The position numbers and the translations under genes are program-made. DNA of 64,000 nucleotides from Tridacna crocea (lineage: Eukaryota; Mollusca; Bivalvia; Cardiida; Cardiidae): assembly GCA_943736015.1 (NCBI GenBank), contig OX031066.1, positions 5,704,245 through 5,768,244 of the forward strand, given 5' to 3'. Below, in pieces: positions 1 through 64,000 of the stretch (positions are counted from its first letter, which is position 1; every line of letters begins with the position of its first letter). Under the pieces are notes generated by a model. That model had not been told where the DNA came from and did not search any database. It worked only from the letters and a program-made list of their open reading frames with translations.

Positions 1-170
1 ATTTGCAGACAACAAAATAAAAGTGACTGAAAATTTGAAATTTATTTTGTGAAGAGTAGAAAACATTATGGGAAAAGGAGTTACCAGCATTTTCTCTTTT
101 TCCTACAATGTTTTCAAAAGGTTTCTTCCACAGGCTTGTCAAAAGTAGGGATTGTGTGGTAATGGGTTAA
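1..170 (+). mobile_element. TTAA hairpin MITE, A1, cut by window edge
   Basis: Begins inside the long arm and runs through a shortened hairpin (GGAGTTACCAGC, so part of one stem arm is lost) to GGTAATGGGTTAA. Confidence 0.85.
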
Positions 171-509
171 TAGATACCATCAGAGATTTTATAATTTCCA
201 GGCTGTTTTGATTAGAATGTTTCTCCACGTATTAGACAATGTTGATGAAAGGTCAGACTGCAGCCTGATCTTTGATCTTTACTGTGCATGGAATTGCATG
301 GTGGCTTGAATTGGTGTCTGGACCGCACTGTGGGTTAACATCTGTAAAGTCCTGTTCCGGCACTTCTCTTGTTATTGTGGTTGGCCATATTAAAATAATA
401 TGGCAAAGGGAAAAATTCTTGGCTTTAATAGCTCAGTGTATGGCATCGTGACAGGCAGAGCTCCAGATAAGGGGCAGTGATGGCATTCTAAATCTTTTAT
501 TTCTCTTCC

Positions 510-584
510 AAACCCTATGTTGTGGGTACTCATTAGAATTGTCTCAATGAGATGATTCTGATGAGTACCCATAACATAGGATTT
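510..584. repeat. Foldback hairpin, about 30-bp arms
   Basis: AAACCCTATGTTGTGGGTAC and a near-complementary copy (GTACCCATAACATAGGATTT) face each other around a short AT-rich loop. It is not related to the MITE hairpin. Sequence just after it (596-645) recurs at 4632-4682. Confidence 0.8.
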
Positions 585-595
585 AGTGGAGAACA

Positions 596-645
596 ATAAT
601 ATTTTCAATTATGAAATCAAAATCACTCTCCATCTGGAGCTCTGA
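596..645 (+). repeat. Short direct repeat, copy 1 (second at 4632-4682)
   Basis: AATAATATTTTCAATTATGA followed by AATCAAAATCACTC and ATCTGGAGCTCTG is repeated almost unchanged at 4632-4682, just after a MITE end. The two are remnants of one unclassified interspersed repeat. Confidence 0.7.
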
Positions 646-747
646 GTCACAGGGCACGTGAAAAACTATTAGTAAATATAGGTGTTTAGTTGACCATGCA
701 GCTATGGGAATCAAACCAACACCCTCAAGTTTCTAGAAAATTGTTGC

Positions 748-976
748 TTAACTCTTTACAACACAATCCCAGCTTTAAATGACCCTGAGAAAAAAGCCTT
801 CTGAAAACATTGAGGGAAAAGGAGAAAATGCTGGTAACCAGCATTTTCTCCTTTCCCCATAATGTTTTCATCCCTTCCGAAAACAAATTTCAAATTTTTA
901 GTCACTTTTCTTTTGTTGTCTGCAAGTGCTTTGAATTTGGACCAGTCCAAAATTTTCTCGTTTGGTAAAGAGTTAA
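748..976 (-). mobile_element. TTAA hairpin MITE, A1, intact
   Basis: Flanked by TTAA on both sides and directly abutting the next copy, with which it shares the TTAA at 973-976. The stem differs from consensus (CATTGAGGG against CCCATAATG). Confidence 0.92.
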
Positions 977-1111
977 CCCTTTACCACACAATCCCTGGTT
1001 TTTACGACCATGCTGGAAAGAATTTAATTTTTGAGTTACGTTTATTTTGTCGTCTGCAAGTGCTTTTAATTTGGACCAGTCTAAAATATTGTCATTTGGC
1101 AAATGGGTTAA
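973..1111 (-). mobile_element. TTAA hairpin MITE, A4, hairpin deleted
   Basis: Both termini and both outer arms are present, but the whole palindrome is missing: the short arm (GACCATGCTGG) runs straight into the long arm (TTTGAGTTACG). Length 139 bp instead of about 228. Confidence 0.85.
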
Positions 1112-1270
1112 AAGTCTCATGCACTTCCACCACAGCTTTTCCAGCAGACAGTTTCAGGAAGTGCACATAGGTAAATCTATAAATTAACAATTTCGATAGA
1201 CAGCTGTACAGATCTGATAACAGTGTAGCTGTCAGATGTGTTTAATTAATTTTGCTGAGGAAGTGTGTAA

Positions 1271-1458
1271 AACATCTTGTATGTAAACCGTCAGATTGTG
1301 AACCCATTCAGAAACATGCAATTTTTTACCCGAAACATCTTGTATATAAAATGTCAGATTGCGAACCCATTTAGAACATGAAATTTTTTACTCGAAACAT
1401 CTTGTATATAAACGGTCAGATTGCGAACCCATTCAGAAACATGAAATTTTTTACCTGA
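1271..1458 (+). repeat. Tandem repeat, three units of 62-63 bp
   Basis: Each unit opens with AACATCTTGTATRTAAA, continues GTCAGATTGYGAACCCATT and ends ATTTTTTAC(C/T)CGA. Units begin at about 1271, 1334 and 1396. It runs into a decayed MITE at 1459. Confidence 0.85.
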
Positions 1459-1595
1459 AACATCTGCAGATGACAAAGTTGAAACTGTTTCAAATAAGCT
1501 CAAGTTCTGCGGTATGGTAGAAAACACTGTGGGAAAGCAGAAAATGTTGGTTACCAGCATTTTCTCCTTTTCCTACAGTGATTTCAAAATCTTTA
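1459..1595 (+). mobile_element. TTAA hairpin MITE, degraded fragment
   Basis: Long-arm remnant (CTGCAGATGACAAAG) and a mutated stem around GTTGGTTACCAGC. Ends are lost. Confidence 0.7.
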
Positions 1596-1831
1596 ATATA
1601 TGTCTCTCAAAGCCATTTATCTTCTTGATTGTTTTTAACACAATGGAATAGAGACTTAATTCCAAAATAGGTAACCCTGTCAAAAATATTATTGTCAGTT
1701 AAGTTACCTCCCTTTCATGAATGCAAATGAGATAGGCAAGGCAAAGTGTTTTGGAGCTTGTGCAAGTACTTAAAGAGGGAATAAAGCCCCAGTGCTGAAA
1801 TGATTGAATTCTCAGTCTGTTAGTCTACTTT

Positions 1832-2030
1832 AATTCTTTCCCCTTCAACTCGAGTTTTTATGACCCTAACAAAGAAATCTTTTGAAATTGTAGCCAAAAA
1901 GAAAAGAAAATATTGAAAACTAGCATTAATTTTGCTTCTTTTCTATTCCATTAAAAACAGAGTCTAGCATTTAAGCCACATTCAAATTCTAGTTTGCAGA
2001 TGCTTTGAACTTTGGTACATTTAGGGTTCC
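1832..2030 (-). mobile_element. TTAA hairpin MITE, heavily degraded
   Basis: Recognisable by GACCCTAACAAAGAAATCTT, a wrecked hairpin and GTTTGCAGATGCTTTGAACTT in the expected order. Termini not intact. Confidence 0.6.
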
Positions 2031-2199
2031 TAGCTAGGTGCAATTGCTGTATTTGTCTACTATGTTTTGATTGCTCTTAATTTGGATTTTCTGGTAATAT
2101 TATGAATGCCTTTTATCAAACAGTCCAAAGTTTTAATTGAAATTGAATTCTGGACATGACCAAATTGAAATGGTTTGTAGGAAATAAAAGAAATGTAGT

Positions 2200-2428
2200 T
2201 TAACCCATTACCACACAATCCCTGCTTTAGCTGACCCTGAGAAATAAGTATTTAGAAAACATTGTTGGAAAATGAGAAAATGCTGCTAAACAGCATTTTC
2301 TCCTTTTCCCACAATGTTTTCCACCCTACTTAAAACAAATTTCCTATTTTCAGTCACTTTTATTTTGCTGTCGGCAAATGGTTTCGATTTGGACAAACCA
2401 AAGATTTGGTTGTTTTGTAGTGAGTTAA
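2200..2428 (-). mobile_element. TTAA hairpin MITE, A1, intact
   Basis: TTAACCCATTACC to GTAGTGAGTTAA. The centre is altered to GCTGCTAAACAGC but most of the stem pairs. Confidence 0.88.
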
Positions 2429-2475
2429 GGAAAAAGCACCCCTATTAGATAAGTGTAATTAAAATGAATAGATAC

Positions 2476-2730
2476 TTAACCCCTTATCACACAACCCTGT
2501 GTTTTAACAGTGCTGAAAAAAGGGCTTTTCAAAAGAATACTGGAAAATAATAAAATGCTGGTAACCAGCAATTACGCTGTTGGTAACCAACATTTTCTCC
2601 TTTTCCAACAATGTTTCTACCCTTTCAAACACAAAATTTATAGCATAATTCAAGCCTCATTTTAGGTTGTTGTCAGCAAAAACTTTCATTTTGTACAAGT
2701 CTGAATTTTTGTCATTGAGTAAAGAGCAAG
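2476..2730 (-). mobile_element. TTAA hairpin MITE with duplicated hairpin centre
   Basis: The tip GCTGGTAACCAGC occurs once, then GTTGGTAACCAAC follows 20 bp later, so the hairpin tip has been duplicated. The long-arm end is decayed. Confidence 0.75.
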
Positions 2731-2767
2731 CCTTTAGGAAATAGTGTTAACTCAAGAGGAGAATGGA

Positions 2768-2995
2768 TGACTTAGCAGACATGTCCAAAATGAAAGTATT
2801 TGCATGCACAAAGTTGAATCAGGCTGATATAACAAGTTTTTTTTCTGTAAAAGGAGCAGAAAGAAATTTGGGAGAAGAAGAAAAATGTTGATTACTTGGA
2901 AAAATGGTCAAGTTTGCGTTTTCCCACATTGAATCAGTCTGAAAGCTGTTTTTGTCAGAGTGGTGGAAACAAGTGGTTGTTTGGTCTAGGGTTAA
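2768..2995 (+). mobile_element. TTAA hairpin MITE, degraded
   Basis: GCAGACATGTCCAAAATGAA and the closing GGTTGTTTGGTCTAGGGTTAA keep the layout; the stem no longer pairs well. Confidence 0.65.
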
Positions 2996-3387
2996 ATTGA
3001 CATGCATGTGTTGTTTTAACCTATAGTTTTGAATGACTTATTTAAATTTTTCTTTTTCTAATTTCTCTTTTTTTGTCATTTTTGTGAAATCTTTAAAGGG
3101 GGAGGAGGTGAGTAAAACTTGTATAATTATGGTATATCTGTGGGATATGGCTACAGTGAATTATTATGTAACAAAGGTGTTTTTTTTGCTTCTTTGTTGT
3201 CAGTGGCGGGCTGCATTTCGAACCTAAATTTTGTATACAAAGGGCAGCTAACTATTCAGTAAACTGTGTTGTTCAAAATTGGTCATTTAATCAATTGTGA
3301 AAGTTTGCTATGATTAACATAATTTGGTAATATTATGCAATATTACGAGTATTCTAATGGGTATAAAGACGTTAAAATTATCTCCTG

Positions 3388-3570
3388 AAGACAAAATTAG
3401 AGTTGTCCATAATCAAAGTAACTGAAGTCGAGAAATTAATATTACTCATATGTTCAGATTTACATAATAAAATGGTAGAAAACATTGTGGAAAATAATAC
3501 TGTTTACCAGCTTTTTCTCCATTTTGTACAATGATTTGAAAAGCCCTTTTGCCAAGGGTCCTTTACTTAG
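3388..3570 (+). mobile_element. TTAA hairpin MITE, degraded
   Basis: GACAAAATTAGAGTTGTCC, GTAGAAAACATTGTGG and GTTTACCAGC in family order; ends lost. Confidence 0.6.
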
Positions 3571-3660
3571 TAAGGTTTCTTGGTAGAAGATTCACTCATC
3601 TATGGACGGAATTAATTATTACTGAAAGTTTGCCTTTAAAAAGAAATAACTAAAATTATA

Positions 3661-3888
3661 TTAAAGCTTTTCCACATAATCCCAAGTTTGAACAATCCTG
3701 GAGGAAGGTTTTTGGCAACATTTGGGAAAAGGACAAAATGCTGGTAACCTGAGCATTTTCTTCTTTTTCCACAATGGTTTCTGTGCTACCAAAGACAGAC
3801 ATGATAATTTTAGGTATTGTTAATTAGTTAACTAGAAATGCTTTCAGTATGGCTGAATACAAAATTTTGTTGTTTGGTAGAGACTTAT
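3661..3888 (-). mobile_element. TTAA hairpin MITE, degraded full length
   Basis: Starts TTAAAGCTTTTCCAC and ends GTTTGGTAGAGACTTA. The stem keeps GGACAAAATGCTGGTAACC. Confidence 0.7.
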
Positions 3889-4257
3889 GGTGAAACAGGG
3901 TTTTCCCTGGGCTTTTTTATTTTACCCGCTTCAAGTGACTAAAAAGCAAACATTTTAATTTTTGGGGACATACACACAACTTGTATGTTCAGATTTAAAG
4001 TAATATGGGGTCAGGGAAAATTGTGGGTGAATGATTACTTATGTTAATTTTCTCTCTTTGCTTTTTGTCATCGTTTTGCTGATTATTACCCTATAAGTTT
4101 CATTTTCTTTATTTTTGGTAGTTCAATTATTGAACTTTGAGATTTTTAAATTGGAGCGAACGTGTTATTTGTTGAGATTTTACAAGTATTGGTGAATGTT
4201 TGCTTTTATTGTACGTGTGTAATTAATTATATGAGCCATATTCTACACAAAAGAGGT

Positions 4258-4397
4258 TTAACTCTACCAGACGACAAAATTTAGACTGTTCCACATTGAA
4301 ATCATTAGCAGATGTCAAAATTAGAGTGACTCAAAAATCGAAATTTGTCTAAGGAAGGAGAGAAAACATTGTGGGAAAAGGAGAAAATGCTGAATGT
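4258..4397 (+). mobile_element. TTAA hairpin MITE, truncated at the hairpin tip
   Basis: Left terminus and complete long arm, breaking off at GAGAAAATGCTGA, just short of the palindrome centre. The next copy starts 6 bp later. Confidence 0.8.
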
Positions 4398-4403
4398 GGA
4401 GAA

Positions 4404-4632
4404 TTAACTCTTTACCATACGAGAAAATTTTAGACTTGTCCAAAATGAAAGCATTTGCAGACGACAAAATAAAAGTGACTGAAAAATTGGAATTTGTTCT
4501 GGGAAGGGTAGAAAACACTGTGGGAAAAGGAGAAAATGCTGGTTACCAGCATTTTCTCCTTTTCCCACAGTGTTTTCAAAAGGTTTCATTCTCAGGGGCG
4601 TCAAAAGTAGGGATTATGTGGTAATGGGTTAA
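4404..4632 (+). mobile_element. TTAA hairpin MITE, A1, intact, C/G stem allele
   Basis: The stem carries CACTGTGGG on one arm and the matching CCCACAGTG on the other, replacing CATTGTGGG/CCCACAATG of most copies. Both arms differ together. Confidence 0.93.
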
Positions 4633-4682
4633 TAATATTTTGAATTTTGAAATCAAAATCACTCCCTCTATCTGGAGCTCTG
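4632..4682 (+). repeat. Short direct repeat, copy 2 (first at 596-645)
   Basis: Near-identical to 596-645; begins immediately at the end of the MITE at 4404-4632. Confidence 0.7.
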
Positions 4683-4687
4683 TTATC

Positions 4688-4768
4688 CTTTCATTTGAGC
4701 CAGTTTTAATTTGTTGTCTGCAAATGCTTTCAATTCTGATAAGGCTGAAGTTTTGTCTTCTGGTATTT
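4688..4768 (-). mobile_element. TTAA hairpin MITE, long-arm fragment
   Basis: GAGCCAGTTTTAATTTG, GTCTGCAAATGCTTTCAATT and GTCTTCTGGTA correspond to the outer half of the long arm. Confidence 0.7.
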
Positions 4769-4904
4769 GAATGATGGCTATCAGATATTGCTCAGTGACA
4801 GCATGAAATATAACATTGTACATAAGGTCTTACCTAGCCTCTAAGGTGTTTTAAAGTCATGCCTAGCAAATCCTGCATAGCCCTGGTTGGAGTCTCGCAG
4901 ATAG

Positions 4905-5032
4905 TTTTTCTGTTGGAAAATCCTTTGGCAAGGTACTTCAAAGCTTTAGCCATATTCTAGTGAAACAATTTTTCTGTTGGAAAGTCCTTTGGCAAGGTAC
5001 TTCAAAGCTTTAGCCATATTCTAGTGAAACAA
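4905..5032 (+). repeat. Tandem duplication, two 64-bp units
   Basis: TTTTTCTGTTGGAAAATCCT...CTAGTGAAACAA occurs twice head to tail (4905-4968 and 4969-5032) with one visible difference, so the duplication is recent. Confidence 0.92.
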
Positions 5033-5067
5033 AGGACACACAATGTGATCTGTCCCAGTGATATGAC

Positions 5068-5296
5068 TTAACCCTTTCCCAAACAATCTCTGGCTTTTAC
5101 AGGTCTGAAATAGCAGCCTTATGAAAACATTGTGGGAAAAGGAGAAAATGCTGGTAACCAGCATTTTCTCCTTTTACCACAAGTTTTTCTACCCTATCAT
5201 AGACAGAAATCATCTTTTCAGCAAGGGGTTGAATTGTTGTCTACAAATACTTCAATTTGGTCTAGTCCAAAAGTTTGTCGTTTGGGAAAGGGTTAA
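5068..5296 (-). mobile_element. TTAA hairpin MITE, A2, intact
   Basis: A2 mark: CTATCATAGACAGAAATCAT and CTTTTCAGCAAG in the long arm. Termini TTAACCCTTTCCC and GGGAAAGGGTTAA. Confidence 0.92.
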
Positions 5297-5650
5297 GTAA
5301 TGTTGAAACCAGTGTAAAACATCATTCAGTCATGGCTATGCTGACTGTTATAATGAAATTTTAGTTCTACCTAGAGGTGACTGTGGCTCATGCTCATGAA
5401 TTATTACCATGAACCCTTATTATGCTAAATAACTGAAATGAAATTTTCAATCGTATAGTGAAAACCCATACATTGCTATTTCAAAGTTATGTTTTGGGGA
5501 ATAATATCTTCTTATAGGACAGTGAAGATAAAAGATCTGGGTCTGTATTCACCAACCGTTCTTAGAATATGTATGTTTTCACCTCGCATTATTGTTTACT
5601 AAGTAAGTGCGCCCAATATGACTGAAGTTGTCAACATGCCTTAAAACGCT

Positions 5651-5719
5651 ATTCATTCATTCATTCATTCATTCGTTCGTTCGTTTGTTCCTTCATTCCT
5701 TCGTTCATTCATTCATTCC
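5651..5719 (+). repeat. ATTC/GTTC microsatellite
   Basis: Runs of ATTC, then GTTC, then CTTC and ATTC again, within an unclassified repeat marked by CACCAACCGTTCTTAG (5548) and CCAACCATTCTTAAG (5717). The same end motif recurs near 8286 and 23126-23322. Confidence 0.9.
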
Positions 5720-5773
5720 AACCATTCTTAAGAACTATCTTAGGTGAGTGAGCTGTGCTTAGCAGCCTAAGGA

Positions 5774-6001
5774 TTAACTCTTTACCAAATGACAAATTCA
5801 TAGACTTGTCCAAATTGAAAGCACTTGCAGACAACAAAATATATGTAACTGAAATATTGAAATTTGTTTCCAGTAGGTTAGAAAACATTGTGGGAAAAGG
5901 AGAAAATGCTGGTTACCAGCATTTTCTCCTTTTCCACAATGTTTTCCAAAGGCTTCTTTCTCAGGGTCGTTAAAAGTCGGGATTGTGTGGTAAAGAGTTA
6001 A
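5774..6001 (+). mobile_element. TTAA hairpin MITE, A4, intact
   Basis: A4 mark: GTAACTGAAATATTG and TTTGTTTCCAGTAGG. The stem is complete apart from one missing C in the right arm. Confidence 0.92.
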
Positions 6002-6121
6002 TAGCTATTTTGATTATCGAGTGAAATTTTAGCACTGCATAGAGGTGACTATGTGGCTTAGATTGTGCTGTGTTGCTATGCTGTCATGCATGCTTGCAAT
6101 CCAGTGTGAATGTCCAAACCT

Positions 6122-6668
6122 TTAAAGGTGGGTACTTAGAAATTTCACATCACACCAGATCAAAAAATATATATATCACTGAAATTTATATGAAAAAGCA
6201 ATACAAATCATCAATAAATAAAAGTCATAAAGTTACAAAAAATTTTTTTTTGATGGTATTCCCTTAAAAGGCTACGTAGCCTCTTAAGCTATTTTTAGAT
6301 TTCGAGCCGAAAACAAAAAAAATGCATCATGGTAATGTTAAGTGACTGGCACGTGACTAATGACGTTTAAATTCCATTACATAACAAACATGTAATTATT
6401 TTTCATAATATCTTCTTCGGACGCTATGTTTGAAGCTTCGTCTGTGTTTTTCCAGTATGTAAATGAGTGAGGTGGTCATGTGAAAATAGAACGTGTTTTC
6501 CGTCGATGTCGACCTTGGCCGTAGTAAATCTCAAATTTGTCGTCTTGTAGGATTGTTTTCGACTACTGGGGTTTTATGAATGACGATTATAAGGCTTTGG
6601 GAGTACTATAATAATATTTTCTTATTTTTGTAAAATTTTCGTCCCAAATTCTGAAGGGCCACCTTTAA
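6122..6668 (+). mobile_element. Repeat family E, copy 1, about 547 bp, TTAA-bounded
   Basis: TTAAAGGTGGGTA at the left, GGGCCACCTTTAA at the right: a second TTAA-bounded non-coding family with ends AGGTGG/CCACCT. It contains the uninterrupted sequence GGTATTCCCTTAAAAGGC, the empty form of the site filled by a MITE in copy 2. Compare copies at 7470-8285 and 22427-22972. Confidence 0.88.
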
Positions 6669-6790: not shown

Positions 6791-6794
6791 CGCT

Positions 6795-10658: not shown

Positions 10659-10887
10659 TTAACCCATTACCACACAATCCCTACTTTTGACGCCCCTGAG
10701 AAAAAAGCCTTTTGAAAGCACTGTGGGAAAAGGAGAAAATGCTGGTAACCAGCATTTTCTCCTTTTCCCACAGTGTTTTTTACCCTTCCCAGAACAAATT
10801 TCTATTTTTTAGTCACCTTTATTTTGTCGTCTGTAAATGCTTTCAATTTGGACCAGTCTAAAATTTTCTCGTGTGGTAAAGAGTTAA
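10659..10887 (-). mobile_element. TTAA hairpin MITE, A1, intact, C/G stem allele
   Basis: CACTGTGGG and CCCACAGTG on the two arms, as in the copy at 4404. Confidence 0.93.
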
Positions 10888-13414: not shown

Positions 13415-13643
13415 TTAACTCATTTCCAAGCGACAAAATTTTAGACTAGTCCAAATTGAAAGCATTTGCAGACGACAAAATTAGTGTGACTAAAAAATTG
13501 AAATTTATTCAGGGAAGGGAAGAAAAGATTGTGGGAAAAGGAGAAAATGCTGGTTACCAGCATTTTCTCCTTTTCCCACAATCTTTTCAGAAGGCTTCAT
13601 TCTCAGGGTCTTAAAAACCAGGGCTTGTTTGGGAAAGGGTTAA
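13415..13643 (+). mobile_element. TTAA hairpin MITE, A1, private change in both stem arms
   Basis: The stem reads GAAAAGATTGTGGG and, on the other side, CCCACAATCTTTTC where other copies have ACATTGTGGG/CCCACAATGT. Shares its right TTAA (13640-13643) with the next copy. Confidence 0.93.
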
Positions 13644-19833: not shown

Positions 19834-20062
19834 TTAACTCTTTACCCCTTAACACATTTCTATGGTATCTCTAATTGACCCTAAATAACAGCAAGGATGA
19901 AGCTGTTTCTTATGTGTATATGTCACCTTTTGATAGCATAGAAAACATTGTGGCAAAAGGTGAAATTGCTCGTCACGAGCAATTTCACCTTTTGGCACAA
20001 TATTTTCCAAAGACTCTTACAAGCGATGCGTAGAAATGAGTACCTATAGAGTAAAGGGTTAA
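19834..20062 (+). mobile_element. TTAA hairpin MITE, subfamily B, intact
   Basis: Subfamily B reference: TTAACTCTTTACCCCTTAAC, then CTCTAATTGACCCTAAATAA and GATGAAGCTGTTTC, hairpin GTGGCAAAAGGTGAAATTGC with centre GCTCGTCACGAGC, end AGTAAAGGGTTAA. It begins 22 bp after the START exon donor. Confidence 0.93.
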
Positions 20063-23125: not shown

Positions 23126-23322
23126 TATTCACCTGTTCCATTCTTAAGAACACATTTGGTCTTATTCTTCAGAATGTCATCATTGTGAAAGTAACAGAAC
23201 TTCTGATTGGCTAAACCATATGGTTTAGCCAATCAGAAGTTCTGTTACTTTCACTGTCAGAAAATCTTGAAAAGTAAGACAGAGAACGTTAATTCTTAGG
23301 AATGGTTGGTAAATATGAATTC
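23126..23322. repeat. Foldback element with perfect 70-bp core palindrome
   Basis: Core 23185-23254 is perfectly self-complementary with no loop: GTGAAAGTAACAGAACTTCT ... centre ACCATATGGT. The outer ends, CCATTCTTAAGAAC and TTCTTAGGAATGG, are inverted too. Long perfect palindromes are unstable, so this is probably young. Confidence 0.93.
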
Positions 23323-26998: not shown

Positions 26999-27227
26999 TT
27001 AACCCATTACCACACAATCCCTACTTTTGACGCCCCTGAGAGAGAAGCCTTTAGAAAACATTGTGGGAAAAGAAGAAAATGCTGGTAACCAGCATTTTTT
27101 CCTTTTCCCACAATGTTTTCTACCCTTCACAAAACACATTTCAAATTTTCAGTTACTTTTATTTTGTCGTCTGCAAATGCTTTCAATCTGGACCAGTCTA
27201 AAATATTGTCGTTTGGAAATGGGTTAA
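26999..27227 (-). mobile_element. TTAA hairpin MITE, A1, intact
   Basis: TTAACCCATTACC to GGAAATGGGTTAA; shares the right TTAA (27224-27227) with the next copy. Confidence 0.93.
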
Positions 27228-27448
27228 CAGACAATAACATTTTATACTAGTCCAAATTGAAAGCATTTGCAGATAACAAAATAAATGTGAATTATTTAAA
27301 AACTAGAATTTGATTAGGAAAGATTAGAAAACATTGTGGGAAAAGGAGAAAATGCTGGTAACCAGCATTTTTTCCTTTTCCCCACAATGTTTTCAAAGGC
27401 TTTCTTTTTCAGGGTCGTTAAAAGTCGGGATTGTGTTGTAAAGAGTCA
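27224..27448 (+). mobile_element. TTAA hairpin MITE, A
   Basis: TTAACAGACAATAAC has lost part of the terminal repeat; the hairpin is nearly perfect. Right end GTAAAGAGTCAAA. Confidence 0.87.
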
Positions 27449-30714: not shown

Positions 30715-30941
30715 TTAACCCTTTACCAAACAATCCCTGGTTTTAACTCCCTAAGATAGAGGCATTTTGAAAACATGGTGGGAAAAGGAGACAATACTGG
30801 TAACCAGCATTGTCTCCTTTTCCCACAATGTTTTCTACCTCATTAGAAACATTTTCAATTTTTGAGTTACATTTATTTTGTCGTCTGCAAGTGCTTTGAA
30901 TTTGGACCAGTCTAAAATTTCGTCTTTTGGGAAAGGGTTAA
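30715..30941 (-). mobile_element. TTAA hairpin MITE, A4, private change in both stem arms
   Basis: Left arm GGAGACAATACTGG and right arm CAGCATTGTCTCC share the unusual AGAC/GTCT pair where other copies have AGAA/TTCT. Confidence 0.93.
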
Positions 30942-31715: not shown

Positions 31716-31945
31716 TCAACTCTGTACCATACAATCCCAACTTTTAACAACCCTAAGAAAGAAAGCTTTTGAAAACATTGTGGGAAAAGAAGAAAATGCT
31801 GGTAACCAGCATTTTCTTCTTTTCCCACCATGTTTTCTACCCTTTTGAAAACAATGTTCAACTTTCAAGTCACATATTTTTTTGTCGCCTGCAAATGCTT
31901 TTGATTTAGGCCTTGCTAAAGTTTTGTTATTTGGCAAAGAGTTAA
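31716..31945 (-). mobile_element. TTAA hairpin MITE, A, private change in both stem arms
   Basis: GGGAAAAGAAGAAAATGC and GCATTTTCTTCTTTTCCC: the usual GGAG/CTCC is GAAG/CTTC on both arms. Left TTAA is TTCA; right end GTTAA. Confidence 0.92.
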
Positions 31946-39911: not shown

Positions 39912-40140
39912 TTAACTCTTTCCCAAACAATCCCTAGTTTTTATGGATTTGGAATTGTAGGCTTTTGAAAACATTGTGGGAAAAGGAGAAAATGCTGGTT
40001 ACCAGCATTTTCTCCTTTTCCCACAATGTTTTCTACCCTATCATAGACAGAAATCATCTTTTCAGCAAGAGTTGAATTGTCGTCTGCAAATGCTTTCAAT
40101 TTGGTCTAGTCCAAAAGTTTGTTGTTTGGGGAAGGGTTAA
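39912..40140 (-). mobile_element. TTAA hairpin MITE, A2, intact
   Basis: Perfect 33-bp stem arms; CTATCATAGACAGAAATCAT in the long arm. Confidence 0.94.
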
Positions 40141-40753: not shown

Positions 40754-41146
40754 TTAAACTATTACCACACAATTCCTACTTTGGACGACCATGAAGCATT
40801 TAGAAGCATTTAGAAAACAATGTGGGAAAAGGAGACAATGCTGGTAACCAGCATTTTCTCCTTTTCCCACAATGTTTTCTACCCTTCTACCCTTTTCTAC
40901 CCTTCTCAAAGCAAATTTAAAATTTTCAGTCACTTTTATTTTAGAAGCATTTAGAAAACAATGTGGGAAAAGGAGACAATGCTGGTAACCAGCATTTTCT
41001 CCTTTTCCCACAATGTTTTCTACCCTTCTACCCTTTTCTACCCTTCTCAAAGCAAATTTAAAATTTTCAGTCACATTTATTTTGTCGTCTGCAAATGCTT
41101 TGGATTTGGACAAGCCTAAAATATTGTCATTTTGGTAACGAGTTAA
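40754..41146 (-). mobile_element. TTAA hairpin MITE, A1, with duplicated hairpin
   Basis: A 141-bp block containing the whole hairpin and the adjoining CTTCTACCCTTTTCTACCC is present twice head to tail (40802-40942 and 40943-41083), nearly identical. Total 393 bp; ends TTAAACTATTACC and GGTAACGAGTTAA. Confidence 0.93.
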
Positions 41147-41397: not shown

Positions 41398-42169
41398 TTA
41401 ACCCTTCACTCCATAGATACTCATTACAATGCATTGCTTGTAGGAGCCCTTTGAAAACATTGTGGCAAAAGGTGAAATTGCTCATGAGGAGCAATTTCAC
41501 CTTTTGCCACAATGTTTTCTATGCTATCAAAAGGTGTCACATACACATAAGAAACAGCTTCATCCATGCTGTCATTTGGGGTCAATTAGAGCGACGTTGG
41601 ACATTTGAGCGAACCCGCAGGACAAAAGAGCGAAAAAAATAGTACGTTTGAGTGACAAAATAGTGGACATTTGAGCGACAAATTTTTAACCTACTTGAGC
41701 GACATTTCAAATTCGTGGTGGACATTTTAGCAACAGGTTTTTTACCCCATTTGAGCTATTTCTTTAAGAGATTCTTGGATAAATTTATTGGATTTGTACC
41801 TCTTCCGTCAGCCAAAGTCTGAGCAGGATAATTTTTTTTACGTTTGGCGCTAACTCGGAGTACATGCCTCTCGATTTGTCAATCGTCTGTTTCATGACCA
41901 TGTGAATTTTTTTTTTTGTTGTAAGATCATACTTGCGGAAGAATCCGTGCATATTCTTGTTTTACATCCCTTTGAAGTACATATTTTAACCAGTGAAAAT
42001 CGTTCGCTCAAATGTCCACCTGGAAATACAGGTGGATGTTAAAATCCGTAGCTCAAATGACTACCAAAGCTGTCCTTCAAATGTCTACTACAAAAATTTT
42101 CAATTTCACTCAAATGTCCTGCGCCCAATTAGAGATACCATAGAAATGCCTGATGGGGTAAAGGGTTAA
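41398..42169 (-). mobile_element. TTAA hairpin MITE, subfamily B, interrupted
   Basis: Perfect B hairpin at about 41454-41520 (centre GCTCATGAGGAGC), terminal GGGTAAAGGGTTAA. The long arm is split at CAATTAGAG by the 534-bp element at 41592-42125. Confidence 0.92.
41592..42125. mobile_element. Mutator-like (MULE-type) MITE with subterminal motif arrays
   Basis: Flanked by a 9-bp duplication, CAATTAGAG (41583-41591 and 42126-42134); uninterrupted B copies have it once (CTCTAATTG at 19874 and 62071). Imperfect ends CGACGTTGGACATTTGAG and CAAATGTCCTGCGCC. The motif ACATTTGAGCGAC or close forms recurs about six times on the left, and its complement about four times on the right. 9-bp TSD is typical of Mutator-like elements. 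No transposase. Confidence 0.9.
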
Positions 42170-45649: not shown

Positions 45650-45873
45650 TTAACCCTTTCCCAAACAATCCCAGATTTTTACAGGTCAGGAATAGAAACC
45701 TTTTGAAAACATTGTGGGAAAAGGAGAAAATGCTGGTTACCAGCATTTTCTCCTTTTCCCACAGTGTTTTCTACCCTATCGTATAGAAAAATAATCTTTT
45801 TAGCAACTGTTAATTTGTCATCTGCAAAGTGCTTTCAATTTGGTCTGGTCCAGAATTTGCCATAAAGGGTTAA
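45650..45873 (-). mobile_element. TTAA hairpin MITE, A2
   Basis: CTATCGTATAGAAAAATAAT and AGCAACTGTTAATTTG; right end CATAAAGGGTTAA shared with the next copy. Confidence 0.92.
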
Positions 45874-48883: not shown

Positions 48884-49115
48884 TTAACCCTTTACCTAAC
48901 AATCCCGGGTTTTCATGAAGGCTGTGCAAGAGGCCTTCTTAAAAATGTTGTGAGAAAAGGAGAAAATGCTGGTTACCAGCATTTTCTACTTTTTCCACAA
49001 TGTTTTCTACCCTATCAAAGCAACATTGCTCCATTTGAAACACTTTGAAATTGTTGCCTTTAAATGTTTTCAATTTGGAAAATATTAACACTTTTGTCAT
49101 TTGGTAAAGGGTTGA
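48884..49115 (-). mobile_element. TTAA hairpin MITE, A3
   Basis: TTAACCCTTTACCTAACAAT, A3 mark CTCCATTTGAAACACTTTG; right TTAA is TTGA. Confidence 0.9.
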
Positions 49116-50505: not shown

Positions 50506-50507
50506 GC

Positions 50508-56764: not shown

Positions 56765-56897
56765 GAATTTTTTGTTTTCATGGAGGTATGAAAACAAAAA
56801 CCTAATCACACTTTTGTATGAAACCACTTTTGCGGTTTCATACAAAAGTGTGATTAGGTTTTTGTTTTCATATCTCCATGAAAACAAAAAAAATTTT
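56765..56897. repeat. Large cruciform repeat with hairpins inside each arm
   Basis: Arms of about 61 bp (CCTAATCACACTTTTGTATG AAACC and its complement) around 8 bp. Each arm also holds TTTTTGTTTTCAT-GGAGGT-ATGAAAACAAAAA, itself an inverted repeat. Pairing is nearly perfect. Confidence 0.93.
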
Positions 56898-57341
56898 CTT
56901 CATTCCTTATAATTCAGTATCACAGACAACAAAATATACACTTGAAAATGACTAACTGCTTTTTTCATTGAAAATCTAACATTGCATATGTATATAATGT
57001 CCATTTCATTCATAATTCATAGCGCGGTAAAACTGCTGGTTCATGACATAACAGTGTGGCGTCACTATAGAATTGAATATTTGCAGGTTCAGTAGCTTTA
57101 TTACTAGAAGTTCAATATGCTAGAATTAAGCTGAAAATAAGATTGTTAGAACCCAGCAAAGTGACAATGAATTTTCAGCTCTTTCTTTGAATTTGCTGTT
57201 GGATATTTTTATCAATATTTAGGGAAAATAAAGTCAGTAAGCAAGTTGAACTTCGGACTCAATAAAGATCAGAAAGAAGACCATTATGAAATCTCGTATA
57301 AATGTTTGTTTACATTACTTTACAAAAGTAGTCCCAGCACT

Positions 57342-57387
57342 GCTGAAAAAAAAATTTTCATGGAGCTATGAAAAAAAAATTTTCAGC
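57342..57387. repeat. Small foldback related to the 56.8-kb cruciform
   Basis: GCTGAAAA...TTTTCATGGAGCTATGAAAA...TTTTCAGC; the CATGGAGNTATG core matches that at 56780. Confidence 0.8.
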
Positions 57388-58374
57388 CAATCACAACTAA
57401 TATTGAATTATATAATTATAGTCTTACTGTAAAAAAAAAATCTGGGACAATGAAATAGGCCAATGAAATCAAAGAAATGGAGGAATGCCAATTTGATGAA
57501 CCCCTGAGCATGATTACAAGTAGTTTGTATTTTTCAGCCTTTAAACAGGGGAACCAAACACTGTAATTTCAAGGTTATTACATCACAACTTTTCACGAAT
57601 GAGAGAAAAAAATGAATAGGTGAGCTGTTTCTGTGGTATGACAAATAATATTGAAAGGGGCTTAGAGCATCATTCGATCTACAAGAGCTTCCAATTTTAA
57701 GAAGTCTAAAATCATGTTGTCGAGATAAAGATAGTATTACAATAGGTATTGACGTAGGAGAAGCTTTTAATGCCAGTATAACAAAGGCCTACCGTTTTAT
57801 TACCCCTACTAACTATAGATGTCTGGCAGGGGGAAATAGCTGTAAAGATTTTTTTGCAGAGTAAGCCAAGTGGGAGCACAGGGGAGTCTAAACATGTGCT
57901 GTTATCTAAAACATCAAAGATGTTACATAATTGTTTAATGTTAAATGCAGCTTTTTTGTAGGCATGGAAATGCTTTCCTGTAAATTTTCTTTGATATAGT
58001 CAAACGATGGCATGATAAAAGGTACCTTGAAAAAATCATGATTTATCCACAAATACATAGAGCAAGTGAGTAACTGGTTAATTACTGGTACAGTTGTCAG
58101 ATTTCCTAATGGTATTTTTATGATTACTTTTTGTGGTAGCTAAAACTTTGCAGGCATTTTGCCTTAATCTTGGTAACAATAAATCCAAATGAATACATTA
58201 TGATTAGCCATTGGTTAAAACACCGGACATGTTTATTTGTTGGGCCCCTTCCTGAACCTATTTGAGGGTACACTTATGACACACCCATATGCAGGCCTTT
58301 AGGATGCTAATCCATACTCAAGGGCAAATATTTACACTATAGCAGATAAATATATAGAAAATATTTGTTTTTTC
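57388..58374. other. No gene recognised
   Basis: AT-rich. A 69-codon stop-free stretch without ATG (57655-57864, containing ITIGIDVGEAFNAS) is unassigned. Confidence 0.35.
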
Positions 58375-58501
58375 GATGAAAGATAGAAATTTATTTCATT
58401 GAGTTAACATCATCGGTAATGATTTCACAAGTGGCTGCACCACTTGTTAACATATATTACTGATGGTGTTCAGGAGATGAAATAAAATTTCCATCTTTCA
58501 C
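58375..58501. repeat. Foldback, about 60-bp imperfect arms
   Basis: GATGAAAGATAGAAATTTAT ... ACAAGTGG faces CCACTTGTTAAC ... AATTTCCATCTTTCAC. Confidence 0.85.
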
Positions 58502-58698
58502 TAATAAAGACAGATATTCTATTTATTTCATGCTTTTAATCCTTTCTGGGAGAGGCTTAAATAAAAATCCAGTACAGTTCTTTTCAGTTATTCCCTGTGG
58601 CGTATCCACTCTGCATAGCAACGATTTACAATATTACGTCAAGTGTGAGACAGTTAAGGTAAATGACGTCATATTTCCTCTTGTGAGTCACACACATT

Positions 58699-58927
58699 TT
58701 AACCCTTTACCAAATGACAATATTTTAGACTGGTCCAGATTGAAAGCACTTGCAGACAACAAAGTTGACGTAACTCAAAAATTAAAATTTGTTTCTAGCA
58801 GGGTAGAAAACATTGTGGGAAAAGGAGAAAATGCTGGTTACCAGCATTTTCTCCTTTTCCCACAATGTTTTCAAAAGGCTTTCATCTCAGGGTCGTAAAA
58901 ACCAGGGATTGTTTGGGAAAGGGTTAA
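58699..58927 (+). mobile_element. TTAA hairpin MITE, A4, intact with perfect 67-bp palindrome
   Basis: Left stem arm 58806-58838, centre T at 58839, right arm 58840-58872, no mismatch. Ends TTAACCCTTTACC and GGGAAAGGGTTAA. Confidence 0.96.
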
Positions 58928-59373
58928 CTAGGTAACCAGAAAATAAAATTCTGTATTTTCACTGGTCATACCCATGGAATATTGAAAAATATTTTCACTG
59001 CTAAATCTCGATATCCTACTGGAAAGCATGAAATAAGATAGGGTACAATCCTTTTCTTGCACTATTTGGTAACTGAATATGTCATGAAGTATTAGCCTAC
59101 ATCTTATTGTATGGTAACATTAACTCTTCAACCGTATATGGTCAAAACATTTTAATGTTGATAGCTTGCAAAATTTATTTTTACATGTAAAACAAAATAA
59201 CATTTTAGATTACCTAAAAGAGATAGATTTTTATGATAAAATATAGACTTTCAAATTAACATTTTATTTTGCTGTTTCTAAATAATATCTTCATGTGCGC
59301 TAAATGACCACAGATGTCAGTGCACATAAAACACCAATTAATAATAATAATAATCAGAAATGAATCTCACTAT
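58928..59373. other. No recognisable feature
   Basis: AT-rich, short ATA/AAT microsatellite at about 59338-59353. Confidence 0.4.
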
Positions 59374-59602
59374 GTAACCCATTACCACACAATCCTTACT
59401 TTTGACACCCCTGAGAAAGTAGCCTTTAGAAAACATTGTGGGAAAAGGAGAAAATGCTGGTAACCAGCATTTTCTCCTTTTCCCACAACGTTTTCTACCT
59501 TTCACAAAACAGATTTAAAATTTTCAGTCACTTTTATTTTGTCGCCTGCAAATGCTTTCAATTTGGACCAGTCTAAAATATTGTCATTTGGTAAAGGGTT
59601 AA
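59374..59602 (-). mobile_element. TTAA hairpin MITE, A1, intact
   Basis: GTAACCCATTACC to GGTAAAGGGTTAA; one stem mismatch (CACAACG). Confidence 0.93.
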
Positions 59603-60000
59603 AGATGCTTATGTTTCTAATAGAATTTCAGTAATCAGATGCTCTATAAGGTTTTCTTTCCAATTGTTAGGTAAGGGGATTAATGATGATTGATAACAAA
59701 ATTTTGTAAAAATTAATTTATAAGAGAACAGCCATTATCATCATGATTCATGTGATTTAAGTTAATCTTTTTATGTGAAATAATTAAAGCAAATAGTATG
59801 AGTCATATAGCCAATGATTATTCATGTCACATAATTTAAACCAGTGTAATCGTTTTAGTTATTACCTTGGCCTAAATTGTTTTGCTTGTTGTCTCTAAAT
59901 GCAATTACTCTTGCAATAACTGGTCTGTACTCTTGGTAAAACGCAGAAACAATTTCAAGGCTGCTTGTGCTTTTTAAAAATGCCATAAGGGAGTATATAA
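59603..60000. other. No recognisable feature
   Basis: AT-rich sequence only. Confidence 0.4.
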
Positions 60001-60155
60001 ATGTTTTCGATTTGGACAAGCCTAAAATTTCCTATTTTTCCCACAATATTTTCTACCTTTTCAAAGGCAAATTTCAGTTTTTCAGTTAAAGATGATTTCC
60101 CAGTTGCAGAATGTTTTCAATTTGGGCCAGTCCAAAGTTTTTCATCTGGTACATG
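60001..60155 (-). mobile_element. TTAA hairpin MITE, two overlapping fragments
   Basis: GTTTTCGATTTGGACAAGCC (long-arm end) then a second piece from TTTCCCACAATATTTTCTAC to CATCTGGTAC. Confidence 0.65.
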
Positions 60156-60195
60156 GATCTAGAGGATTGATGTATCAAGACTTCCCTTCACTTCT

Positions 60196-60301
60196 TACCA
60201 AACCAGAAAATCTAGACTGCTCTTAACACAAAGAATTTTCAGATGACAAAGGAAATACTGAAATGGTAGGATTTGCCTTTGAAAGAGTAAAAAAATACCG
60301 G
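60196..60301 (+). mobile_element. TTAA hairpin MITE, long-arm fragment
   Basis: TACCAAACCAGAAAATCTAG and GAAATGGTAGGATTTGCCTT; a possible other half is at 60569-60650. Confidence 0.6.
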
Positions 60302-60568
60302 CAAGGGCATAGCTAATCCAAAATAAAGTATGTGCAAATATAAATACCCAAGATACCCTTAGTATTATCTTGCATGCAAAGTGCGTAGAGGGAGATGAGG
60401 ATTTCCCTAGGAGGGACTCTTCCCTGGAAATTTTTGAAACGTAGAAACTGTTTGATGGCTTCTTGTGATGATTTGTCTGCAAAAGTATTTTTCTTTTTCT
60501 TTTGCAAAAAGTACACAGCAGTAAAAGTGTCTTTTGCATACAGTCAGCTAAGCCCCTGGCTTTTTACT

Positions 60569-60650
60569 GGCAATTTCACCTTTTTCGAGAATATTTTCAA
60601 ACACTGGTTACATCAGGGTTGTCAAAATTCTAAATTGTGTGGTAAGCCTA
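60569..60650 (+). mobile_element. TTAA hairpin MITE, short-arm fragment
   Basis: CTGGCAATTTCACCTTTTTC, ATCAGGGTTGTCAAAATTC and GTGTGGTAAGCC. With 60196-60301 this may be one copy split by about 270 bp of unknown sequence. Confidence 0.6.
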
Positions 60651-60975
60651 TATTGTTAAATATCTGGAAGTGTCATAATAAATTTCTAAATAACAGTCGT
60701 TTTTTCCCTTGAAAATCTACCACAGGTCAAATTTGCTGAAAATCACTTTTTTCACATTAATTTTGTATTTAGAACTTATAATGTTAAAAGCAGAAATAGC
60801 CTGTAAAGTATGTTAGCTGTATAGATTCACCAAGACAGTCATAGTGTGTGATAATTTGTTGGGCAAAATGGCTAAACATAGCCTGAAAATATTCATTCCA
60901 TTCATTATTTAGCACTGTTAGGTGCTATAAATCATTTCAACAGAGTTCCTGCTCTTGTCTTCAGGCATATGATGA

Positions 60976-61421
60976 TTAACCCATCACCAACAGTCCTGAG
61001 CTTTTTGACTCGCCCTAGGAAAGACAGCCTTTGATAACATTGTTGGAAAAGATGAACAATGCTGGTGACCCAATTTTTTTCCTTTTTCCGCAAAGTTTTT
61101 TTTCCTATCAAAGCAAAATTGCATCATTTAACTCTTTACCACATAATCCAGACCCACAGAAACAAAGCCTTTGAAAACATTGTGGGAAAAGGAGAAAATG
61201 CTGGTTACCAGCATTTTCTCTTTTTCCCACAATGTTTTCTATCCTTTCCAAATCATATTTTAATTTTTGATACACATTTTTTTTGTCGTCTGCAAATGCT
61301 TTGAATTTAGACAAGTCCAAAATTTTGTCGTCTGTAAAGACTTAAGCCACCTTGAAATTGTCATCTGCAAATGCTTTCAATTTGAATAGGTGTAAAATTT
61401 TGCTGTATGGTAACAGGTAAC
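60976..61421 (-). mobile_element. TTAA hairpin MITE, A3, containing a nested MITE
   Basis: Outer copy: TTAACCCATCACCAACAGTC, hairpin, CAAAATTGCATCATTTAA, then (after the insert) TTAAGCCACCTTGAAATTG to GGTAACAGGTAA. Other A3 copies read CACCATTTGAGCCAC here, so the insert entered at a TTAA-like site. Confidence 0.9.
61128..61345 (-). mobile_element. TTAA hairpin MITE, A, nested inside another
   Basis: TTAACTCTTTACCACATAAT to CTGTAAAGACTTAA; TTAA on both sides; a good hairpin. Confidence 0.93.
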
Positions 61422-61554
61422 CCTTCACCATACAGTCCGGGGCTTTACTCCCTCTAAGAAAGAAATCCTTTTAAAATATAGTTGGAAAAGGAGAAAATGC
61501 TGGTAACCAGCACCTTCTCCTTTTCCAACTATGTTTTTTGCCCTTTCAGAGTTA
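61417..61554 (-). mobile_element. TTAA hairpin MITE, half copy, private change in both stem arms
   Basis: Stem base ATAGTTGGAAAAGG and CCTTTTCCAACTAT: both arms carry the same departure from ATTGTGGG/CCCACAAT. Cut off at the TTAA of the next copy. Confidence 0.88.
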
Positions 61555-61785
61555 ACCCATTACCACTCAATCCCTAAGTACTTTTGACACCCCTGAGAAA
61601 GAAGCCTTTTGAAAACACTGTGGGAAAAGGAGAAAATGCTGGTAACCAGCATTTTCTCCTTTCCCCACGGTGTTTTCTACTTTTTCCAGAACAAATTTCT
61701 ATTTTTCAGTCACCTTTTTTTTTTGTCGTCTGCAAATGCTTTCAATTTGGACCAGTCCAAAATTTCTCGTGTGGTAATGAGTTAA
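61552..61785 (-). mobile_element. TTAA hairpin MITE, A1, intact
   Basis: TTAACCCATTACCACTCAAT to GGTAATGAGTTAA; stem CACTGTGGG against CCCACGGTG. Confidence 0.92.
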
Positions 61786-61862
61786 ATCCCTCATGTGATT
61801 TATTGTCTGGAATTACATTTGATTTTGACTCATCAACTATTTCTCGTGTGGTTAAGGGTTAA
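61786..61862. mobile_element. MITE terminal fragment
   Basis: CATTTGATTTTGACTCATC and CTCGTGTGGTTAAGGGTTAA resemble the A1 end just upstream. Confidence 0.5.
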
Positions 61863-61984
61863 ACATTACTGCCAGGTATCTAAAATAGGCATGATTCAGT
61901 AGGGAAAAAAAGTCTTGCACCTTGTAGTTTCATTAGGCTGTTTTGGTTGGAATCAGAGTTTATTGTGCAGGGAGTGGAACAGTT

Positions 61985-62030
61985 TACATGTAGATTCTAA
62001 ATTAGACTGTACTGATCTTGATCTATAAAG
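61985..62030. repeat. GATCAGACTGCA hairpin repeat, decayed
   Basis: AATTAGACTGTACTGATCTT then GATCTATAAAG. Confidence 0.5.
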
Positions 62031-62035
62031 CTATC

Positions 62036-62259
62036 TTAACCCTTTACCCCATAATGCATTTCTGTGGTATCTCTAATTGACCCTAAATAACAGCAAAGAT
62101 GAGGCTGTTTCTTATGTGTATATGACACCATTTGATAGCATAGAAAACATTGTGGCAAAGGGTGAAATTGCTCGTCACGAGCAATTTCACCTTTTGCCAC
62201 AATGTTTTCCAAAGGCAATGCTTAGAAATGAGTATCTATGGAGTGGAGTAAAGAGTTAA
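62036..62259 (+). mobile_element. TTAA hairpin MITE, subfamily B, intact
   Basis: TTAACCCTTTACCCCATAAT, CTCTAATTGACCCTAAATAA (the empty form of the 41592 insertion site), centre GCTCGTCACGAGC. Confidence 0.94.
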
Positions 62260-62359
62260 TTGCTCCAAGAATCAACTGTTAAAATGTAAATTAAGTCTTT
62301 GTAAGCACATGTTTCAGGGTATTAATACATAGGCTGCTTATTATGTCTCAAGAACTTAT

Positions 62360-62430
62360 TGCAGACAGTGTAGATCAAGATGAGAGTGCACAGAATGTGC
62401 AGTCTGATCTTGGATCTACATTGTCCAATA
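62360..62430. repeat. GATCAGACTGCA hairpin repeat
   Basis: GTGTAGATCAAGATGAGAGT and TGTGCAGTCTGATCTTGG, then ATCTACATTGTCC. Confidence 0.75.
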
Positions 62431-62531
62431 AGGAGACAATTGTCTTCCCCAAGTATAACTTTGATATGGCACTATTTTGTTTTTTCGCCGTCAATATAAA
62501 GGTATCATTAGTTGTTCTGCAGGATAAGGGT

Positions 62532-62957
62532 TAACAACTCATTTGTAGTAGGGCTTCCAATAATATTGTGGGATAAGGAGAAATTTGCTGGTAACTAGCA
62601 TTTTCTCATTCTCTCTTAACTGTTTACCACATGACAAAATTTTAGGCTAGTCCAAATTGAAAGTACATGCAGATGAGACAATAAAAATGACTGAAAATTT
62701 GAAATTTGTTTTGTGAACAGAAGAAAACACTGTGGGAAAAGGAGAAAATGGTGGTTACCAGCATTTGCTCCTTTTCCCACAGTGTTTTCAAAAGGCTTCT
62801 TTCTTAGGGGCGTGAAAAGTAGGGATTGTGTGGTAATGGGTTAATGTTTTCTATGCTATCAAAGATAAATTCCATAGTTTGAGCCACATTCAAGTTGTTG
62901 TCTGCCACTCAGATGCTATCAAATTTTGACAAGTCTAAAATTTTGTGGTCTGGCAAA
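62532..62957 (-). mobile_element. TTAA hairpin MITE, A3, with a MITE nested in its hairpin arm
   Basis: TTAACAACTC, stem GTGGGATAAGGAGAAATTTG, GGTAACTAGCATTTTCTC, then TTAA[insert]TTAATGTTTTCTATGC and the A3 arm to TCTGGCAAAG. The insertion site lies in the right stem arm. Confidence 0.88.
62617..62844 (+). mobile_element. TTAA hairpin MITE, A1, nested, C/G stem allele
   Basis: TTAACTGTTTACCACATGAC to GGTAATGGGTTAA; CACTGTGGG/CCCACAGTG stem. Confidence 0.94.
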
Positions 62958-62998
62958 GTCGACACTTCATCGGAATATGAAATTTAAGACTTATCTTT

Positions 62999-64000
62999 AT
63001 AACGCTTTACTAATCTTGAGTGCAATCTTTTAACAACCTTGAGAAAGAAGACTGTAGAAACCATTGTGAGAAAATGAAATAATGCTGGTAACCATTGTAG
63101 TCCCGTGTTTTATGTAACAAAGTTGCATCCTTGTTCCCTGTTTAATGAAAAAAAGTTGCATTCTTGTCCCTTTTCCTATGTCACAAAGTAGCATTTTTTC
63201 CAATGTTTTATGTCACCAAGTTGCATTTTTTTCCCATGTTTTATGTCACAAAGTTGCGTGCTTATCCCCAATGTCACGGAACAAAGTTGCATTCTTGTCC
63301 CCCATGTCACAGAACAAAGTTGCATTCTTGTCCCCCATGTCATGGAACAAAGTTGCATTCTTGTCCCTCATGTCATGGAACAAAGTTGCATTCTTGTCCG
63401 GGCCTGCTAAATAGAACTAAGTTGCATTCTTGACCTGTTTTATGTAACAAAGTCAAATTCTTGTACCCTGTTTTATGTCCCAAAATCGAATTCTTGTCCC
63501 CTGTTTTATGGAACAAATCTAAATACTTGTACCCAGTTCTATGTCCCAGAGTTGCATTCTTGTCCGCTGTTTTATGTAACAAAGTTGAATACTTGTGCCC
63601 TGTTTTATGTCCCAAAGTTGAATACTTGTACTTTGTTTTATGTAACAAAGTTGTACCTAGTTTTATGTCCCAGAGTTGAATTCTTGTCCCCTGTTTTATG
63701 TAACAAAGTAGAATGCTTGTACCCTTTTTTATTTAACAAAGTTGAATATTTGTACTGTTTTATGTCCCAAAGTCGAATTCTTGTCCCCTGTTGTCTGTAC
63801 CGAAATTGAATTCTTGTCCGGGCTTTATGTAACAAAGTTGCATTCTTGTCCCCTGTTTTATGTTGCAAAGTTGCATTCTTGTCCCCTGTTTTCTCATAGT
63901 ATTTCCTACCCTATCAAAGTCAGAAATCATCATATTGCCAAGATTTTATTTGCTGTCTGCAGATGCTTGGAATTCGGACTTGTCTAAAACTTTGGTATTT
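62999..64000 (-). mobile_element. TTAA hairpin MITE swollen by a minisatellite, cut by window edge
   Basis: Left: AACGCTTTACTAATC, CTTGAGAAAGAAGACTG, GTGAGAAAATGAAATAATGC, GGTAACC. Right, after the array: CTCATAGTATTTCCTACCCT, ATCAAAGTCAGAAATCATC (A2 mark) and GTCTGCAGATGCTTGG. The array replaces the hairpin tip and right stem arm. Confidence 0.85.
63093..63893 (+). repeat. 33-bp minisatellite, about 24 units, inside a MITE
   Basis: Unit CAAAGTTGCATTCTTGTCCC plus CTGTTTTATGTAA or ...GTCC. Around 63260-63390 a homogeneous sub-block uses CATGTCAYGGAA instead. As 33 is a multiple of three, several frames on both strands stay open and yield an 11-residue repeat (FYVTKLHSCPL-like); I see no promoter, splice site or start context for any of them. 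Confidence 0.94.

Follow-up and report, generated by a model that had tools for sequence, protein, structure and literature searches.

The stretch analysed here (the window) comprises 64 kb of contig C11 in a Tridacna crocea genome of 1.05 Gb and 31 contigs, and contains many copies of a miniature inverted-repeat transposable element (MITE). A profile built from 187 near-full-length copies gave a consensus of 227 positions with TTAA at both ends. The element, about 230 bp long and flanked by TTAA, has terminal inverted repeats approximating TTAACYCTTTACCA and carries an off-centre palindrome, in which two 33-bp arms flank a single base. Pairs of this stem are numbered from d1, adjoining the centre base, to d33, the outermost. 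The element is presumably a candidate for the class of TTAA-flanked, piggyBac-like MITEs, a likeness that consists of the TTAA ends and short terminal inverted repeats, as seen in the consensus alone. Stem-covering copies number 91 in the window, ten arbitrary 3-kb stretches of the genome contained 21 hairpins in total, and the exact 35-base palindromic core has 166,719 matches in the genome. By this exact core count, the copy number of the family is extraordinary. No open reading frame of at least 150 amino acids was found in the 64-kb window under translation table 11. All stem states were read from the assembled sequence of one genome. The question addressed is how single copies come to have both arms of the stem changed at the same pair (a double), either with pairing kept (compensated) or without (uncompensated). 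The matched doubles first reported from the window are mostly inherited, and compensated doubles at two pairs, d9 and d4, exceed what independent mutation would give.

The original prediction had drawn attention to copies at 13415, 30715, 31716, 61417, 4404, 10659 and 62617 whose arms carry the same departures, and comparison with the consensus shows that these changes are real. The suggestion that four of them look unique has mostly failed, as the alleles of 13415, 30715 and 31716 are common to long-arm relatives of those copies. The double of 13415 (d28, C.G>G.C) was present in 19 of 29 relatives fetched with a query that contained the stem; in four of the 29 one arm had the change while its partner showed a gap or a different letter, and six were without the double. 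By eye, its carriers have long-arm letters in common. The allele of 30715 (d10, A.T>C.G) occurs in 258 copies genome-wide; 20 carriers were fetched, and the long-arm distance from 30715 stays within 0.25 for 17 of them. The allele of 31716 (d14, G.C>A.T) occurs in 2,029 copies genome-wide. Relatives of 31716 were fetched by the right arm alone (the best 20 of 39); 17 were of the same right-arm type, with the double in 11 of the 14 that were readable, and the three of another right-arm type were unchanged at d14.

A sample of all ages was also assembled, consisting of 222 copies (260 stem-covering copies minus 38 at places retrieved by the queries; L001 and L009, which lie inside the window, were left out before counting). 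The CACTG/CAGTG allele at d26 was found in 20 of the 222 copies and is clustered by long arms (p = 0.001), and the d13 and d20 alleles of subfamily B mark a long-arm clade of six in the sample (p = 0.0005). A shared master for each variant, named in the original prediction as the main alternative, is thereby upheld for most of the examples (13415, 30715, 31716 and d26, by long arms).

Exact patterns were then counted over the genome, with the remainder of the 35-base core held intact. At d9 (A.T), 2,129 matches (1,069 + 1,060) were changed on a single arm, compared with the 166,719 unchanged, and 191 doubles were observed where 6.8 are expected from independent arms. Among the 50 of these 191 that were listed, 43 were compensated (16 T.A, 18 C.G and 9 G.C) and 7 uncompensated. 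The compensated fraction differs markedly from the one third expected under equal base spectra (binomial p = 1.9e-14), and it still does so among the matches listed when a clade of T.A carriers, described below, is set aside (30 of 37, p = 3.3e-9). At d4 (T.A), 125 doubles were found genome-wide, and 40 of the 50 listed were compensated (26 C.G and 14 A.T), with 10 uncompensated (p = 1.7e-11). Per letter combination, compensated doubles at d9 outnumber uncompensated ones approximately nine-fold if the T.A clade is left out and twelve-fold if it is counted, assuming that the three unfetched G.C carriers are scattered. The uncompensated d9 doubles, extrapolated from 7 of the 50 listed to about 27, themselves lie above their independent share of about 4.5; the copies therefore differ in age or history. 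The compensated doubles at d9 outside the clade comprised 18 C.G, 9 G.C and 3 T.A among those listed, a skew towards C.G over T.A in comparison with the single-arm spectrum (p = 0.001) that counts the three G.C carriers not fetched.

The long arms of compensated carriers were compared, 40 of the 43 d9 carriers among the matches listed having been fetched. Thirteen belong to a single young clade, whereas the other 27 are spread among long-arm types that are unrelated; these scattered carriers comprise three T.A, all 18 C.G and all six fetched G.C copies. Mean pairwise long-arm distances were 0.283 for C.G and 0.347 for G.C carriers at d9, compared with 0.268 for 20 unchanged controls, and for seven of the 18 C.G carriers another C.G carrier was closer than every control. 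At d4, the minimum comparable distance among 12 fetched C.G carriers was 0.18; eight A.T carriers were fetched, two of which (L201 and L206) have identical arms.

A long-arm tree of 265 copies was constructed with FastTree, and the fewest label changes were counted for each class of carrier, with the unchanged controls as yardstick. Copies of the background set were left out if they had at most 140 arm letters, as were one d14, one d10, one d9 C.G and three d4 C.G carriers with too little long arm. The controls gave 20 label changes for 20 copies. The carriers gave 16 for 17 (d9 C.G), 6 for 6 (d9 G.C), 9 for 9 (d4 C.G), 7 for 8 (d4 A.T) and 18 for 19 (the d14 allele); the d10 allele gave 12 for 19 and d9 T.A gave 4 for 16. 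It is apparent that the C.G and G.C carriers at d9, and the d4 carriers, scatter as fully as unchanged controls. The original prediction had proposed asking whether doubles occur in copies that are not grouped into a clade by their long arms, and the answer is positive genome-wide at d9 and d4. The evidence is weaker at d14, where 20 of the 2,029 carriers were sampled from the matches listed first on contig 1; when these were compared with 20 unchanged controls, 14 had another such carrier as their nearest copy. Three of them (L049, L055 and L062) have the same left-arm type by eye, and minor clades among the d14 carriers are likely.

The T.A clade at d9 (L149, L150, L153-L159 and L161-L164) consists of near-identical copies, three of them within about 150 kb on contig C2, and this burst suggests recent activity or local duplication. 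In L049, the left and right long arms resemble different subfamilies by eye; to judge from this copy, copies may recombine near the hairpin.

Two carriers were followed into their close relatives. The double of L172 (C.G at d9) was present in none of 19 readable relatives, chosen by the right arm alone and 92-95% identical (20 of 39 listed were taken, one listed place, C19, being passed over). Among these relatives, L213 shows a separate compensated change, at d15 (G.C>T.A), and L211 has one at d6 within a stretch that contains further changes. For L039 (G.C at d25), 16 of the best 20 of 39 relatives were unchanged, one had the right-arm half only and three were unreadable. In other copies, compensated changes were seen side by side: at d23 and d24 in L192, by eye, and at d18 and d19 in L084, besides one at d10. 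Such neighbouring pairs may each reflect a single templated event.

The base at the centre of the palindrome was scored in copies oriented by their long arms. Where the four tip pairs were intact, it was A in 100 copies, T in 15, C in one and G in one; without this filter the counts were A 171, T 29, G 11 and C 2, with nine gaps. With the tips intact, T makes up 15 of 17 changed centres, compared with the 34% that T makes up among 100 listed single-arm changes at d9 (p = 6e-6). The centre-T carriers are not clustered (mean distance 0.352; random sets, 0.289), and for all 15 the closest relative in the sample has A. A centre T would fit a flipping of the middle, and a T-biased substitution would look the same.

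In the 222 copies, 5,816 of 6,893 readable pair cells were unchanged and 908 were changed on a single arm; of the cells changed on both arms, 116 were compensated and 53 were not. As a rule, then, the stem decays on one arm at a time, which the original prediction had named as the mark of independent mutation. Eight recurrent double types make up 73 of the 116 compensated doubles. With these eight removed, both arms were changed at partner positions 96 times, compared with 39-68 times at 20 other offsets. This control understates the doubles, because the excluded types include several that are not clustered by long arms (d3 C, d8 T, d20 A, d22 T and d24 A), and its value is moderate, since most of the sample consists of old copies.

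The original prediction had offered two kinds of mechanism, correction of one arm against the other and selection for paired stems, the latter including hairpin RNA. The data favour the copying of arm to arm. Single-arm transitions that leave G.T on the plus strand (236) are about as frequent as those that leave A.C (257), and in view of this lack of asymmetry selection on a hairpin RNA was rejected.

The inherited doubles, the scattered doubles and the centre base are probably best explained by arm-templated copying within single copies (template switching or hairpin conversion), together with amplification of source elements. One arm would occasionally template the other within the same copy, either by DNA synthesis that folds back or switches strands at the palindrome or by repair inside an extruded hairpin. 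Such copying would convert a single-arm change into a double, and would presumably restore the original about as often; its strand-switched form would also flip the centre base. A source element that had acquired a double would pass it to its offspring, which would account for doubles that mark clades. Tentatively, new symmetric stem subfamilies might be born when a change on one arm is made symmetric by a templated event in a copy that then becomes a source, in which case arm copying would be an engine of the family's evolution.

Several results weigh against this explanation. Three sibling sets chosen by the right arm only, with the stem disregarded (20, 20 and 17 copies), contained 126 single-arm changes and six doubles, 2 of them compensated and 4 uncompensated, which is no excess over the approximately three doubles expected; a shortage of single-arm changes relative to neutral decay, implied by the original prediction, was not seen in these sets either. 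Arm copying must therefore be slow. Its excess shows in the intact-core counts, which keep copies that are otherwise free of change. In the 222 copies, the commonest class of change, G>A with C>T, was found 18 times at the same pair against 16.0 expected, again no excess. Mirrored indels were tried as a signature and rejected, the ten matches being unconvincing; nearly all were a large deletion in one arm over a gap in the other, or touched the tip on both sides. The assumption of equal base spectra behind the one-third expectation was examined in the single-arm spectrum at d9 only (G 35, T 34 and C 31 among 100 listed). At d14, the 2,029 compensated doubles were set against 397 (202 + 195) for mismatched partners of d14 and d15, two combinations together, a control that is not rate-matched (single-arm G>A/C>T, 37 at d14 and 23 at d15); because the rates differ, the excess is nearer six- than ten-fold. 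With a spacer of one base, inversion and an A>T substitution look alike. Finally, the d10 carriers mostly form a clade, and 13 of the 16 T.A carriers at d9 belong to one that is very young.

These last clades would be expected if shared masters were the whole explanation, a double arising in a source by two successive mutations and being inherited, with no ongoing arm copying in dispersed copies. This is true of most of the examples from the window and agrees with the 12 label changes for 19 d10 carriers. As a general account it is nevertheless unlikely, given that the C.G and G.C carriers at d9 and the d4 carriers scatter like unchanged controls, and that close relatives of L172 and L039 are without their doubles. 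Selection in source elements for paired stems, acting on transposition efficiency, would make single-arm mutants dead ends, with doubles rescued and overrepresented among successful copies. Source stems do look constrained, the mean divergence from the consensus in the 222 copies being 9% of sites in the stem and 22% in the long arms, and subfamily B is symmetric. However, the sibling groups expected of rescued sources are absent for the C.G and G.C carriers at d9, the L172 double is missing from all 19 readable relatives, and the centre base is left unexplained. We regard such selection as an improbable explanation in its own right; it may act together with arm copying.

Conversion between copies could carry ready-made doubles into other backgrounds, and L049 looks chimeric by eye. 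It should, however, spread uncompensated doubles equally, and among the 50 matches listed for each pair these numbered 7 at d9 and 10 at d4; inspection of the d9 carriers, by eye only, revealed no co-transferred flanking marker, so that this route appears very unlikely. Independent mutation in old, fast-changing copies explains the G>A/C>T class and the sibling sets, and probably the uncompensated doubles. It can hardly be the general explanation when 191 doubles stand against 6.8 expected at d9, and when 43 of 50 (d9) and 40 of 50 (d4) of the matches listed are compensated. Hairpins are known to trouble polymerases, and an artefact of sequencing, amplification or assembly at palindromes is a further objection. 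Any double that a whole clade has inherited must be genuine, and an error would need to dominate the reads at each site; such artefacts are a very improbable explanation of the results.

The copies of the window to which reference is made above, together with those of subfamily B and those with a centre T, are listed in Table 1. Palindromes of other families were also observed, one at window positions 56768-56891 (58-bp arms, 8-base spacer) and one at 23185-23254 (perfect 35-bp arms, no spacer). Two hairpins of the window, at 40811-40881 and 40952-41022, have identical single-arm changes at a spacing of 141 bp and are probably a local duplication.

Table 1. MITE copies of the window, in window coordinates, with the state of the stem relative to the consensus
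Feature	Position	Strand	Stem state and remarks
MITE copy	13416..13642	-	Stem 13522-13588; sole consensus difference in stem d28 C.G>G.C
MITE copy	30716..30940	+	Stem 30769-30835; d10 A.T>C.G and two single-arm changes
MITE copy	31718..31944	+	Stem 31771-31837; d14 G.C>A.T and one single-arm change
MITE copy, alignment lacks part of right arm	61418..61550	+	d22 G.C>T.A, d25 T.A>A.T and four single-arm changes
MITE copy	4405..4631	-	d26 T.A>C.G allele
MITE copy	10660..10886	+	d26 T.A>C.G allele and two single-arm changes
MITE copy	62617..62843	-	d26 T.A>C.G allele and two single-arm changes
Subfamily B copy	19835..20061	-	Symmetric changes at d3, d8, d13 and d20
Subfamily B copy	41400..41533	+	
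Subfamily B copy	62038..62217	-	
MITE copy, centre T for A	39913..40139	+	Nearest sampled relatives (0.063-0.100) have A
MITE copy, centre T	45651..45870	+	
MITE copy, centre T	61129..61340	+	
MITE copy, centre T in element orientation	27224..27446	-	
MITE copy, centre T	48885..49113	+	

When both sides of a stem change in concert, structural selection is the usual reading. In the repeats studied here, which are dispersed and presumably neutral, such compensatory changes recur, and uncompensated doubles at the pair in question serve as an internal control. Whether mutation alone can maintain pairing can accordingly be counted by pair, by base change and by distance from the tip. If arm copying in dispersed copies does drive the evolution of the family, the identity of the MITE hairpin would owe its persistence to mutation bias and not to selection on pairing, and the great number of copies would amount to a natural, replicated assay of template switching. 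The results also carry a warning, in that covariation in palindromic repeats is no proof of a functional RNA.

As judged by titles and the openings of abstracts, with subscription papers largely outside the scope of the search, no paper turned up by the literature search describes arm copying of this kind in a MITE family. Two marks of template switching are found at both d9 and d4, namely that compensated doubles outnumber uncompensated ones at the same pair, among the matches listed, and that doubles recur in unrelated copies. In Saccharomyces cerevisiae genes, template switching between the arms of inverted repeats is reported to lead to arm homogenisation, spacer inversion and recurrence (Abraham and Hazkani-Covo 2021, PMC8604942). 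Arm copying in the MITE would likewise homogenise the arms of a short, perfect inverted repeat and invert its spacer; the yeast events lie in protein-coding genes and were read off a strain phylogeny, whereas the present system is a dispersed repeat whose spacer is a single base, compared by copies and not by a phylogeny of single insertions. RNA hairpins, too, have been reported to be made and kept by template switching, with compensatory changes and loop inversion arising from the mutation process and not from two-step selection (Monttinen and Loytynoja 2022, PMC8794818). In a table of that paper a single compensatory change ('one CM only') is given as not significant, and its discussion calls the role of the process in the maintenance of short stems less clear. 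The genes in question are RNA genes under selection, unlike the MITE, and the likeness lies in compensatory changes that stem from the mutation process. Quasi-palindrome-associated mutation in yeast and E. coli, by which imperfect inverted repeats are reported to become more perfect through a template switch (PMC3820800, PMC7202029), was described in laboratory reporters, whereas the palindromes described here belong to a natural repeat family.

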